Of a stretch of DNA of 64,000 nt, positions 40,641 to 59,058 are shown one piece after another. This DNA is from Pseudorhodoplanes sp. Its GTDB lineage: Bacteria; Pseudomonadota; Alphaproteobacteria; Rhizobiales; Xanthobacteraceae. The stretch is taken from assembly GCA_019187085.1 (NCBI GenBank), contig JABARS010000004.1, positions 124,001 through 188,000 on the forward strand, given 5' to 3'. The notes below the pieces were generated by a model. It saw only the letters and a list, made by a program, of their open reading frames with translations, was not told where the DNA came from and made no database searches. The position numbers and the translations under genes are program-made. How positions within the stretch are numbered: the stretch's first letter is position 1; every line of letters starts with the position of its first letter.

Positions 40641-40678
40641 AAAAAAGGTGCGGCCGGCCTTGGGGGAAGGCCGGCCGC
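40641..40678 (-). terminator. Intrinsic terminator of the transglutaminase-like peptidase gene
   Basis: Twelve-bp stem GCGGCCGGCCTT / AAGGCCGGCCGC (40650-40661, 40667-40678) with a five-base loop. Plus-strand AAAAAA at 40641-40646 makes the U-tract on the minus strand. It lies about 80 bases beyond the stop codon at 40757, giving a long 3' UTR. Confidence 0.85.
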
Positions 40679-40756
40679 GCGCAAACCCGGTCGGGGACGG
40701 GGAGGGGTGGGGACGTGACCGGGGTTGCGTGACCGATGGAGTCCTTTCGCTTGCGC

Positions 40757-41389
40757 TCAGCGGCGCGGCGAGGTCGCGGTGGCGATGTTGCCGCGCGGAT
40801 CGCCGAGCGACACCCACATATTCGGATCGTTCTGCGACTGACGCTTGACGAAACGGTAGGTGGTGTCGGTCCAGAGCAGGATGTCGGGATGCTGGTTGTC
40901 GAGCACGAACTCGCCCTTGTCGGTTTTCACCGTCAGCACCGCGTGGCCGTCGCCCGAGCGCTCGCGCACGACCGTGATCAGCAGCGCCTCGCGCGGCCAG
41001 CCGGCCTGCATCAGGAGCTTGCGCTTGAGCAGCACATAGTCCTCGCAGTCGCCGATGCCGTCGTCGGGATACGACCACTTCTCGACCACGCCCCAGTGTT
41101 CGAGGTCGGTCATCGGCTTGATCTTTTCGTTGACCCACTTGTTGATGCGGGTCAGGTCCTTCCAGGCCTTGGCGGTGAGCACGACGTCGCGCGGGCTCGA
41201 CGTGCGTCCCTCGCATTCGCGCGGCTGGTTCGAGCAGAATTCCACCCAGCCGATCGGCGGGCGCGAGGTGTCGCCGAGCGAGGCGAACAGAAGGCGTTCG
41301 CTCGCCGCAAGCACGCCGGACAGGCCAAGCGCCATGAAGACTGCGGCGGCGGTCGCGACGGCCGGTATGCCTTTCGGATACCGTTTCAT
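40757..41389 (-). CDS. Bacterial transglutaminase-like cysteine peptidase (BTLCP family)
   Basis: 210 residues with a signal peptide (GIPAVATAAAVFMALGLSGVLAAS). Triad residues are Cys115 in GDCEDY, His149 in DGHAVL and Asp164 in VLDNQ. The family includes LapG, a periplasmic protease controlled by c-di-GMP through LapD; here no lapD is adjacent, though a PilZ gene lies upstream. Its 3' UTR carries the exact complement of a 17-base motif in a candidate sRNA at 43303-43319. Confidence 0.9.
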   Translation of the reverse strand: MKRYPKGIPAVATAAAVFMALGLSGVLAASERLLFASLGDTSRPPIGWVEFCSNQPRECEGRTSSPRDVVLTAKAWKDLTRINKWVNEKIKPMTDLEHWGVVEKWSYPDDGIGDCEDYVLLKRKLLMQAGWPREALLITVVRERSGDGHAVLTVKTDKGEFVLDNQHPDILLWTDTTYRFVKRQSQNDPNMWVSLGDPRGNIATATSPRR

Positions 41390-41724: not shown

Positions 41725-42345
41725 TTACACGCCGGTCACGCTCTCTTCGACAAAGTCGGGATGCTGCAGGCGCAGGAACTCGACTGCGAAGCCGTCGTCG
41801 AGATGGCGCACGACGCGGCCCTGCACCTTGCCGAGCGTGACGAGCGCGCCCATGGGCGGACGCTGGTCGGTCGCCACCGCCGCGCCGGAGAGCGACAGGT
41901 CGATCAGGCGGCAGCCGATATTGACGCCGTTCGGCAGGATCAACATGGTCATCGGCCGCTTGGGCACGAAGCGACCGTGACGCCGGTCTTCCGGCGAGTC
42001 GAGCAGGTGGCGGTTGGCGAGCCAGGTCAGTTGCGCGGCGATGCGGTCGCGCTTGCGTAGGGTCGCCGCGATCGTCATCGCAAATCCGTTGTCGAAATGG
42101 CGCGTGATCACGCCTTCGAGCCGTCCGACATGATCGATATAGGCGACCACGCGCTCGCCCTGCCGGCCGGTGACCGGGGCGATCAGCGCCATGCCGCCGG
42201 GCGACATGTTGATCACCTGGCACGGATATTCGTGCCGGTCGCTCAGCATGTAGCGGCCAAGCAGGTTGACTTTGACGCGCTGGAACCTGCGCCGCTCCTG
42301 CGCGTGCGGGAGGATCCGTGCAGCCGTCAGGCTCGAATGCAGCAT
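41725..42345 (-). CDS. Tandem PilZ domain protein
   Basis: 206 residues with two PilZ-like halves. The first has ERRRFQRVKV (about 17-26) and INMSPGGMAL (about 45-54), the classical RxxxR and NxSxxG c-di-GMP contacts. The second has RRHGRFVP and IDLSLSGAAV. It should bind c-di-GMP and may form a receptor for the GGDEF/EAL proteins elsewhere in the window. No membrane segment. Confidence 0.88.
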   Translation of the reverse strand: MLHSSLTAARILPHAQERRRFQRVKVNLLGRYMLSDRHEYPCQVINMSPGGMALIAPVTGRQGERVVAYIDHVGRLEGVITRHFDNGFAMTIAATLRKRDRIAAQLTWLANRHLLDSPEDRRHGRFVPKRPMTMLILPNGVNIGCRLIDLSLSGAAVATDQRPPMGALVTLGKVQGRVVRHLDDGFAVEFLRLQHPDFVEESVTGV

Positions 42346-42452: not shown

Positions 42453-43040
42453 TCAGTCGCTGCGTCCGCCTTCCAGCACGACAAACCGGCGGCGCGGACT
42501 TTCCCCGGTCGGCACGGCCGCAAAGCGCGGCGGCAGCACGACGTCGAGGGCGGGGCCGATATGACGGTAGACGCCGAGCGTCAGCGCGCCCAGCGGCTTG
42601 ACGCCGGCCCAGTAGGGCCGCTGCACGGCCGACAGCGCGCCGAGCAGACGGGCCGGCATGCCGCGCCGGTAACCGAGCGGCAGCAGCAGCAATTCCAGCT
42701 CGAGCCGCTGCCGGTCCGCGGTCTCGCCATGGGCGGCGGCGACCACGCCGTTTTTCTCGGCCGCGATGATCGTCACGAGATCGTCGAGTGCGCCCGCGCT
42801 GCCCTCTGCCCACAGGCCGCGGAACGGCCGCTCCTTCAGCTCGCGGCCGAACAGCGCGCACAGGCGCGTGCCGGCGATGCGGAACGGATGCCCGCGCAAG
42901 GGATCGAAGCCGAGGATGAAGGTATCGCCCAGAATGCGGCGGATCGCGCCCGGCTCGATATCGGTACGGTCGGGCGCGGCGCGCGCGCCGCGGCAGGTGT
43001 CCCAATATGCGAACAGTTCGCGCGTCGTTTCGTTTTTCAT
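42453..43040 (-). CDS. PAS-domain protein (PAS_5 family)
   Basis: 195 residues. The segment ELFAYWDTCRGARAAPDRTDIEPGAIRRILGDTFILGFDPLRGHPFRIAGTRLCALFGRELKERPFRGLW is the hallmark of PAS_5 proteins, a PAS-like fold common in Hyphomicrobiales. There is no attached output domain. AGGGG precedes the ATG. Same strand as PilZ but 107 bases apart. Role unknown; probably a sensor or regulator. Confidence 0.85.
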   Translation of the reverse strand: MKNETTRELFAYWDTCRGARAAPDRTDIEPGAIRRILGDTFILGFDPLRGHPFRIAGTRLCALFGRELKERPFRGLWAEGSAGALDDLVTIIAAEKNGVVAAAHGETADRQRLELELLLLPLGYRRGMPARLLGALSAVQRPYWAGVKPLGALTLGVYRHIGPALDVVLPPRFAAVPTGESPRRRFVVLEGGRSD

Positions 43041-43213
43041 GCCGCCCCTGTCCTGTCGTTGCGCAGACGGTGTGCCAGGCTGTGCCCCGATGGCACAGCG
43101 CGGCGCGTATCCGCGATGGCGCGGCTTGAGGGAGCAGGACGCGTGCCGCGGACGGCATTGGCGGGGTCGCTCGCGCCGCCAGGTCGCGCGTTATTCTTAA
43201 TTCGCGGATCGGA

Positions 43214-43242
43214 TTGGCAGCCGCGTCCGACGCGCTTATGGT
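43214..43242 (+). promoter_or_regulatory. Candidate sigma-70-type promoter of an sRNA
   Basis: TTGGCA (43214-43219), 17-base spacer, TATGGT (43237-43242). Five of six and four of six matches to consensus with ideal spacing. No protein gene begins downstream before a strong terminator at 43357-43387. Confidence 0.5.
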
Positions 43243-43248
43243 GGCCGC

Positions 43249-43387
43249 GATCCACACGACCTGCCGGTTGCAACGACCGGTAGCGAAACGAGCAACGGGA
43301 GTGGTGGGGACGTGACCGGCGCATGATTGCGCGGTATTCCCGATGGGGCTCCGCAGGAGGGAGAGCTGATGCTCTCCCTCTTTTTTT
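43249..43387 (+). ncRNA. Candidate trans-acting small RNA (about 140 nt)
   Basis: Bounded by a promoter-like element and a perfect terminator in a 439-base gap whose left neighbour is on the opposite strand, so the transcript is unlinked to any upstream gene. Predicted hairpins: CCGGT/ACCGG around 43264-43280, GCGCA/TGCGC near 43320-43333, then the terminator. Between them an unpaired stretch holds GGTGGGGACGTGACCGG (43303-43319). That motif recurs at 40706-40722. Resemblance to the multi-copy suhB/mmgR RNA family of Hyphomicrobiales is possible but unchecked. It might instead be a leader of the rhomboid gene. Confidence 0.5.
43357..43387 (+). terminator. Strong intrinsic terminator with no upstream plus-strand gene
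   Basis: Perfect 10-bp stem GAGGGAGAGC / GCTCTCCCTC with a TGAT loop, followed by seven T. It lies 93 bases before the rhomboid start. Confidence 0.88.
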
Positions 43388-43479: not shown

Positions 43480-44241
43480 ATGGTCTCCTTGAATCCGCCC
43501 CGACAGCCGATCTTCAACGTTCCCACAGTCGTGGTGGCGACCCTCGTCGTCCTGCTGGCTGTCCATCTTGTGCGCCTGTTCGCGCTGACCGCGCGCGGCG
43601 AGCTGGAATTCCTGTTGCTGTTTGCCTTCATCCCGGCCCGCTACGACAGCGCAATGCTGGTGTCGGGCACGATGCCCGGCGGCATGTTTGCCGACGCCTG
43701 GACGTTCGTCACCTACAGCCTGATCCATGCCGATTTCATGCATCTGGGTTTCAATGCGATCTGGCTCTTGGCGTTCGGCACGCCGCTGGCGCGTCGCTTC
43801 GGCGCGGCGCGGTTTGTCGCGTTCGTGGCGGCGGCGGCGGCGGCCGGCGCGCTTGCGCATCTTGTGACGCATCCCGGCGAGATCATTCCGATGGTCGGCG
43901 CCTCGGGGGCGATTTCGGGCGCGATGGCGGCCTCCATGCGCTTTGCGTTTCAGCGCGGCGGTCCGCTGTGGACCGGACGCGCGGACACGGCCTCGTACCG
44001 GCAGCCGGCCTTGCCGCTGCGCGCCGCGCTGCGGGAACCGCGCGTCCTCATTTTCATTCTGCTCTGGTTCGCGCTGAATTTCCTGTTCGGCGTCGGCTCG
44101 ATCTCGATCGGTGGCGACCAGCAGTCGGTCGCCTGGGAGGCGCATGTCGGCGGGTTCATGGCCGGGCTGCTGCTGTTCGGATTTTTCGACCCGGTGCGCG
44201 GCGCGCCGGAAGCGGAACCGCCATCGGCGTCGGTGTGGTAG
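43480..44241 (+). CDS. Rhomboid-family intramembrane serine protease
   Basis: 253 residues with six membrane helices. Catalytic Ser142 lies in GASGA and His222 in AWEAHVGG; HADFMHLGFNAIWLLAFG matches the rhomboid N-terminal His/Asn motif. The protein cleaves transmembrane substrates within the bilayer. A loop of about 30 residues after helix 4 (GGPLWTGRADTASYRQPALPL) is typical of alphaproteobacterial members. It follows the candidate sRNA by 93 bases. Confidence 0.9.
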   Translation: MVSLNPPRQPIFNVPTVVVATLVVLLAVHLVRLFALTARGELEFLLLFAFIPARYDSAMLVSGTMPGGMFADAWTFVTYSLIHADFMHLGFNAIWLLAFGTPLARRFGAARFVAFVAAAAAAGALAHLVTHPGEIIPMVGASGAISGAMAASMRFAFQRGGPLWTGRADTASYRQPALPLRAALREPRVLIFILLWFALNFLFGVGSISIGGDQQSVAWEAHVGGFMAGLLLFGFFDPVRGAPEAEPPSASVW

Positions 44242-58846: not shown

Positions 58847-58866
58847 GAATCGATTACCTGCGCTGC

Positions 58867-59058
58867 GAGCGGGAGAGACTGGTACGCATTAAGCGATGCG
58901 CGCCGGCGCCGAAGGAGCAACCACCCCGGAATCTCTCAGGCAAAAGAACCGCTCACGACCGACTGGACTCTGGAAAGCGGAGCCGCATGCTCCCGCCGAC
59001 GGTGTAAGTCGAAGGCCCGCGAGGGGCTTTCGGCGAAACTCTCAGGCCGATGACAGAG
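58867..59058 (+). promoter_or_regulatory. Tandem glycine riboswitch
   Basis: Aptamer 1 (58867-58954) is closed by GAGCGG/CCGCTC and contains GGGAGAGAC, GCCGAAGGAGCAACC and CTCTCAGGCAAAAG. Aptamer 2 (58968-59058) is closed by CTCTG/CAGAG and contains GCCGACGG, the GTAAGTCGAAGG arm and AACTCTCAGGC. These are the conserved blocks of the gcvT motif in correct order with a short linker. A GCGCGC hairpin and the GGAGG of the next gene follow, forming a likely expression platform. Confidence 0.93.

Follow-up and report, generated by a model that had tools for sequence, protein, structure and literature searches.

Two conserved RNA elements were computed in a 64,000-nucleotide stretch of the Pseudorhodoplanes sp. 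genome (the window) and in its relatives, together with the structure of one of them, U, and a complementarity to the other, S, that is kept by compensated changes. Our analysis suggests that S and U are two undescribed RNAs which act as a pair, and that S is most likely the antagonist (sponge) of U, a reading that we consider probable. Since S and U change together letter for letter, one of them most likely works by capturing the other.

A 17-mer shared by two sites of a conserved gene cluster

The sequence GGTGGGGACGTGACCGG is found exactly at 40706-40722 and at 43303-43319 of the window, on the + strand at both sites. As the copy at 40706 is located between the stop codon of the minus-strand Peptidase_C93 gene and a minus-strand terminator (40678-40650), it is antisense to S. 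The 17-nt antisense match to the 3' UTR of the peptidase gene, which the original prediction had reported, is thus exact, and the widened match comprises 22 of 23 positions (43297-43319 versus 40700-40722). A scan for further copies had been proposed as well, and it revealed none beyond S and the U site: in the whole 3.7-Mb genome the 17-mer has two exact copies, both within the window (0 in the reversed control), and the 22-mer of the 3' UTR site, with up to 3 mismatches allowed, matched the same two places only. The genes around the two sites are:

40757-41389, - strand: Peptidase_C93 (BTLCP) gene, upstream of U (PF06035, E 1.1e-69; weak LapG match, below cut-off)
41725-42345, - strand: PilZ-domain gene, conserved neighbour (domain match; synteny)
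42453-43040, - strand: PAS_5 gene bordering the S spacer, conserved neighbour (domain match; synteny)
43480-44241, + strand: rhomboid gene, downstream of S (domain match; synteny)

Across much of Hyphomicrobiales the gene order is U, peptidase, PilZ, PAS_5, spacer, rhomboid and CBS. S had been called unlinked, a description that does not hold: its partner is only 2.6 kb away, in a gene cluster that is kept across the order.

U, a structured RNA behind the peptidase gene

U is predicted on the minus strand, with the following parts:

about 40644-40734, - strand: U RNA at the 3' end of the peptidase transcript, made up of a stem, the C-rich loop and a terminator (models R1 and R2; covariation)
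40681-40729, - strand: U stem-loop with the C-rich loop (fold; helix 1, 7 of 7 pairs changed on both sides)
40700-40722, - strand: site complementary to S, consisting of the 5' stem arm and the first part of the loop (match, fold)
40650-40678, - strand: U terminator hairpin (terminator call; helix 2, 9 of 9 pairs changed on both sides)

The element comprises a stem CCGGUC...GACCGG, a loop ACGUCCCCACCCCUCCCCGUCCCCA and then a G+C-rich terminator. Among the matches listed for the reference genomes, the same element was found at at least 70 loci that match the 17-mer exactly, and all of these belong to Hyphomicrobiales where the record gives the order or a lower rank. A first covariance model, built from 60 of these loci, matched in 52 of 140 genomes of Hyphomicrobiales. 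With a second model based on 36 diverse sequences, U was detected in 167 of 396 genomes and 59 of 135 genera of the order, and in none of about 113 genomes from the rest of the class; counts over 40-genome sets were made with strict filters, which miss weak U copies. In the genome of the window itself, U scored E 1.6e-13 with model R1 and 6e-11 with R2.

Among 99 aligned matches, all 16 pairs of the structure changed on both sides and 98.1% of the cells pair, in an alignment that was fitted to the model and is biased towards it. None of 500 shuffles reached a covariation as high as observed, and the covariation score, 0.43 with the partners in place, fell to about 0.1 or less when these were slid by 1-3 columns. 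The start of U lies a median of 19.5 nt past the peptidase stop codon (92 of 97 loci). At these 92 loci U is placed as 3' UTR-derived sRNAs are, at an mRNA 3' end and with a shared terminator. Five genomes of one family (L205, L211, L253, L254 and L255) keep U with no peptidase gene within 1.6 kb, and because of these five loci an own promoter of U is possible. A single genome carries a tandem pair of U (L219, 167-251 and 259-344, with 7 nt between the copies).

S, a predicted small RNA of the PAS-rhomboid spacer

On the opposite strand, the spacer between the PAS_5 and rhomboid genes is predicted to encode S:

43214-43242, + strand: predicted S promoter TTGGCA-17-TATGGT (matches the consensus at 9 of 12 positions)
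43249-43387, + strand: S RNA, predicted sRNA and putative antagonist (sponge) of U (terminator call, fold, homologues in PAS-rhomboid spacers order-wide)
43261-43283, + strand: S hairpin 1, 10 bp (fold; sequence unconserved outside the genus)
43297-43319, + strand: S pairing stretch (22 of 23 positions match; perfect 17-mer at 43303-43319; compensatory changes in relatives)
43355-43387, + strand: S intrinsic terminator with seven-T tail (hairpin 43355-43382; terminators also in homologues)

An independent sRNA gene had been proposed here on the grounds of a promoter, three hairpins and a perfect 10-bp terminator with seven T. We located the predicted promoter at 43214-43242 and the terminator hairpin, with its perfect 10-bp core and the seven T at 43381-43387, and folding (MFE -64.8 kcal/mol; z -4.2 versus shuffles) recovered the three hairpin units. 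Further backing for the gene comes from homologues found throughout the order, with their terminators and compensatory changes. The motif of S had been described as exposed, which applies only partly, since the predicted fold places most of GGGG and of a part of CCGG in pairs. The promoter arrangement TTGGCA-N-GT..GCGATCCACAC also occurs in the genomes G001, G003 and G019 (0 in the reversed control), and the strict pattern, with matches in only four genomes of the family, is too narrow for a census. With this predicted promoter and the predicted terminators, S may be made as a separate transcript.

In the genus of the window and its near relatives, the spacer keeps the pairing stretch, a GATCCA where S is predicted to begin, and the terminator, whose stem shows changes compatible with pairing. 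An intrinsic terminator follows within 130 nt in 36 of 51 spacers with a confident S site, versus 1 of 51 in each of two controls. The rest of S, beyond pairing stretch and terminator, is variable. S is missing or unrecognisable in many U-bearing genera and in several lineages with an exact U (L026, L037, L040, L057, L071 and L083). Such absence is provisional in any genome because S is short and the pairing register shifts. In genus g25, a search with the stem-type motif suggested loss and a loop-type search found S, which makes absence elsewhere provisional too.

The predicted 5' end of S, GATCCACAC (43249-43257), is nearly invariant within the genus. Its pairing with GTGGGGA of the pairing stretch of S itself is a possible self-mask suggested by the sequence; these pairs are invariant and therefore prove nothing. 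A short ORF from the GTG of GGGGAYGTGACC, which has the look of a ribosome-binding site with a start codon, appears unlikely, as the frames downstream differ among relatives; this RBS-like stretch may be the reason for a mimicry of a U target by S. In genome G005 (L148), where S lies about 2.6 kb from U, the stretch GGGGACGTGACC of S is directly followed by its own complement GGTCACGTC, so that S could fold on itself there and hide the pairing stretch.

Upstream of S, three further features are kept in the spacer (43041-43213 and homologues): a GGGACA-type palindrome, TGTCCCCGATCGGGACA in relatives, a GAGCAGG-N-CGCGTGCCG block and TTAA-type half sites GTTAGGGTTAA that are reminiscent of CtrA boxes. 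The PAS_5 protein (42453-43040) has a weak match, below the curated cut-off, to MopJ, a motility and cell-cycle regulator.

Compensatory changes between U and S

Changes in the U loop are mirrored in S: the U sequences GGUCGAGUCCCC, GGUCGCAUCCCA and GUAUCCCCACCCCUC are matched in S by GGGGACUCGACC, UGGGAUGCGACC and GAGGGGUGGGGAUAC, respectively. The variable part is the entrance of the U loop, which differs between families and is tracked by S. GAG in U is accompanied by CUC in S (L215, L229, L230 and L231), GCA by UGC (L220), GCG by CGC (L207, L208, L239, L241 and L255), GUG by CAC (L199 and L200) and GUA by UAC (L234). Within the family of the window, genera g25, g26, g27 and g69 have the register of the duplex shifted into the loop; S carries GGGGAGGGGTGGGGAT there, and a 13-mer is present at U and S, with one extra copy in one genome. 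The S and U genes of three g25 genomes are about 12-13 kb apart. Some Bosea loci (L017 and L101) combine S GACGCGACC with a U that has ACG, which leaves one mismatch.

Using one genome per genus, we scored the U-S pairing in 42 genera by ungapped duplexes, a gapped duplex-energy scan being too permissive. Own pairs reached a mean of 1057 versus 952 for permuted ones (sd 23; maximum 1040 of 9000), which is no formal probability because genera may share ancestry. The reverse-strand control showed little gain (827 versus 811, sd 16), and about half of the 42 genera did not score above background. A preference of S changes for G.U-compatible ones (p 0.035) is weak; it leans towards RNA pairing and was not relied on. 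Folding S and U jointly gained about 30 kcal/mol over the separate RNAs, in model energies only. The compensatory changes and the one-per-genus permutation point to a selected complementarity of S to the conserved surface of another ncRNA, as in sRNA sponges, and this comparative evidence across Hyphomicrobiales supports S as a predicted sRNA.

Proposed mechanism and alternative explanations

U would either arise from the 3' end of the peptidase transcript or have its own promoter, and would consist of the covarying stem, the terminator and, between them in function, a C-rich loop of about 25 nt that the stem closes. Judging from the loop sequence and from the analogy to EcpR1 and alphaR8, the loop may bind G-rich ribosome-binding regions of mRNAs. 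S, presumably transcribed in the PAS-rhomboid spacer with its own promoter and terminator, would pair through its G-rich stretch with the U loop and, in the majority of lineages, with the 5' arm of the U stem as well. An open U loop and a partly closed S stretch fit a first contact at the loop and a subsequent invasion of the U stem, in which S would displace the 3' stem arm. The predicted duplex has about 12 to 23 bp, with 17 perfect pairs in the window, and may either mask the targeting surface of U or trigger joint decay.

Both sites lie on the same DNA strand, and a cause at the level of DNA was considered because they form a direct repeat there: the copies might be bound by one protein, interconverted, or form G-quadruplex DNA. 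A perfect G4 motif, GGGGACGGGGAGGGGTGGGG, is indeed found on the + strand of U opposite its loop (window 40690-40713). However, only 49 of 99 U loops retain four C runs, for which reason we rejected a DNA G-quadruplex as the cause of loop conservation. Furthermore, one arm of a covarying RNA stem falls within the repeat in U, a terminator usually follows the repeat in S, and its register varies by lineage (stem plus loop, or loop only). For gene conversion, 12-17 bp would be a short segment. We regard such a cause as very improbable. It is unlikely, although somewhat less so, that the roles of the two RNAs are reversed, with S regulating mRNA targets of its own and U acting at the peptidase 3' end as a sponge that captures S. 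Pairing itself is directionless and sponges derived from 3' UTRs exist, for example SroC and SkatA (PMC9438474), but U surpasses S in both conservation and spread and is retained by lineages that lack S, whereas S is variable beyond the pairing stretch and the terminator.

The linkage of S and the peptidase gene in one cluster, and the start of U right behind the peptidase stop codon, would also suit a control of the peptidase mRNA by S, acting in trans on the 3' UTR (stability or 3'-end processing), with U as a mere binding site. This direct control leaves U without a peptidase gene unexplained: of the five genomes concerned, L255 keeps a matching S. In addition, U has a covarying stem of its own and remains exact where S is lost, and we consider control of the peptidase mRNA rather unlikely, if the best of the alternatives. 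What the original prediction had said of S and the peptidase mRNA thus needs to be divided. S can pair with the 3' end of the transcript, as the compensatory changes indicate, but the survival of U without the peptidase gene speaks against the mRNA as the regulated object, and this mRNA is probably the carrier of U and not the true target of S.

We therefore favour S as the antagonist of U, which we call a sponge by analogy. Since the hairpin RNA survives without the peptidase gene in one family, S most likely regulates U, and since U is kept where S is missing, U seems to be primary and useful without S, which would make S an accessory partner. More tentatively, and with a chance that we put somewhat below even, a C-rich-loop sRNA and a dedicated anti-sRNA, usually in one conserved cluster, may have co-evolved across Hyphomicrobiales, the anti-sRNA invading the stem of the sRNA and the pair forming a post-transcriptional switch that predates the families in which it occurs.

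Relation to known RNAs

Neither in the window nor in 47 related loci did any Rfam family reach its gathering score for S or U. The original prediction had raised a kinship of S with suhB/mmgR (alphaR8), for which the Rfam search around S returned no match at gathering score or at E 10. The alphaR8 core is single-stranded and C/U-rich, UUUCCUCCCU, and usually lies beside an FGase gene (PMC12559287); the S stretch is G-rich and its locus lies between the PAS_5 and rhomboid genes, so that we abandoned this assignment. SorY for S (RF02651, 25.3 bits versus a gathering score of 111) and ar14 for U (RF02344, 11.7 bits versus 58.8) were likewise rejected as weak structural resemblances.

The closest known system is CrfA of Caulobacter crescentus, a sponge of the alphaR8 sRNAs SisA-D, whose interaction with SisA was proven in vivo (PMC12559287). 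Like CrfA and SisA, S and U would combine a G-rich sponge RNA with the conserved C-rich core of another sRNA in an alphaproteobacterium, in our case by computation only. However, the SisA core UUUCCUCCCU is found beside an FGase gene, whereas U lies behind Peptidase_C93 and has a long stem-closed C-rich loop. Moreover, one conserved cluster usually encodes both S and U, and Rfam contains no match to either. The resemblance of S to CrfA is functional only. EcpR1 (SmelC291) of Sinorhizobium meliloti may serve as a model for the action of U, and differs from it in loop (UCCGCCGCAUCU) and locus (divK-pleD/rpmG); unlike what is proposed for U, the accessible text of that report describes no sponge (PMC4414408). 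SroC is a 3' UTR-derived RNA (PMC9438474), and U is similar to it in lying at an mRNA 3' end, in ending in the intrinsic terminator of the mRNA and in a possible role independent of the gene. In contrast to SroC, the 3' element here appears to take the part of the sponged RNA instead of the sponge, and in one family it has survived the loss of its gene.

Our literature search, with supplement catalogues outside its scope so that either RNA may have a catalogue number, found no paper that names the S-U pair or prints the loop sequences. An sRNA with a sponge is a known kind of system; what appears new are the two RNA families described here and the co-evolution that links them across the order. 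Bacterial sponge RNAs have mostly been described one species at a time. The S-U pair can be traced over many genera, with compensatory changes that predict the pairing base by base in each, and it is testable in culturable relatives, Bosea being among the named loci with both RNAs. It thereby offers a natural series for the co-evolution of an sRNA and its antagonist, and for the question why some lineages lose the antagonist but keep the sRNA.

Elsewhere in the window, a glycine riboswitch aptamer was detected on the + strand at 58860-58961 (RF00504, 66.6 bits).
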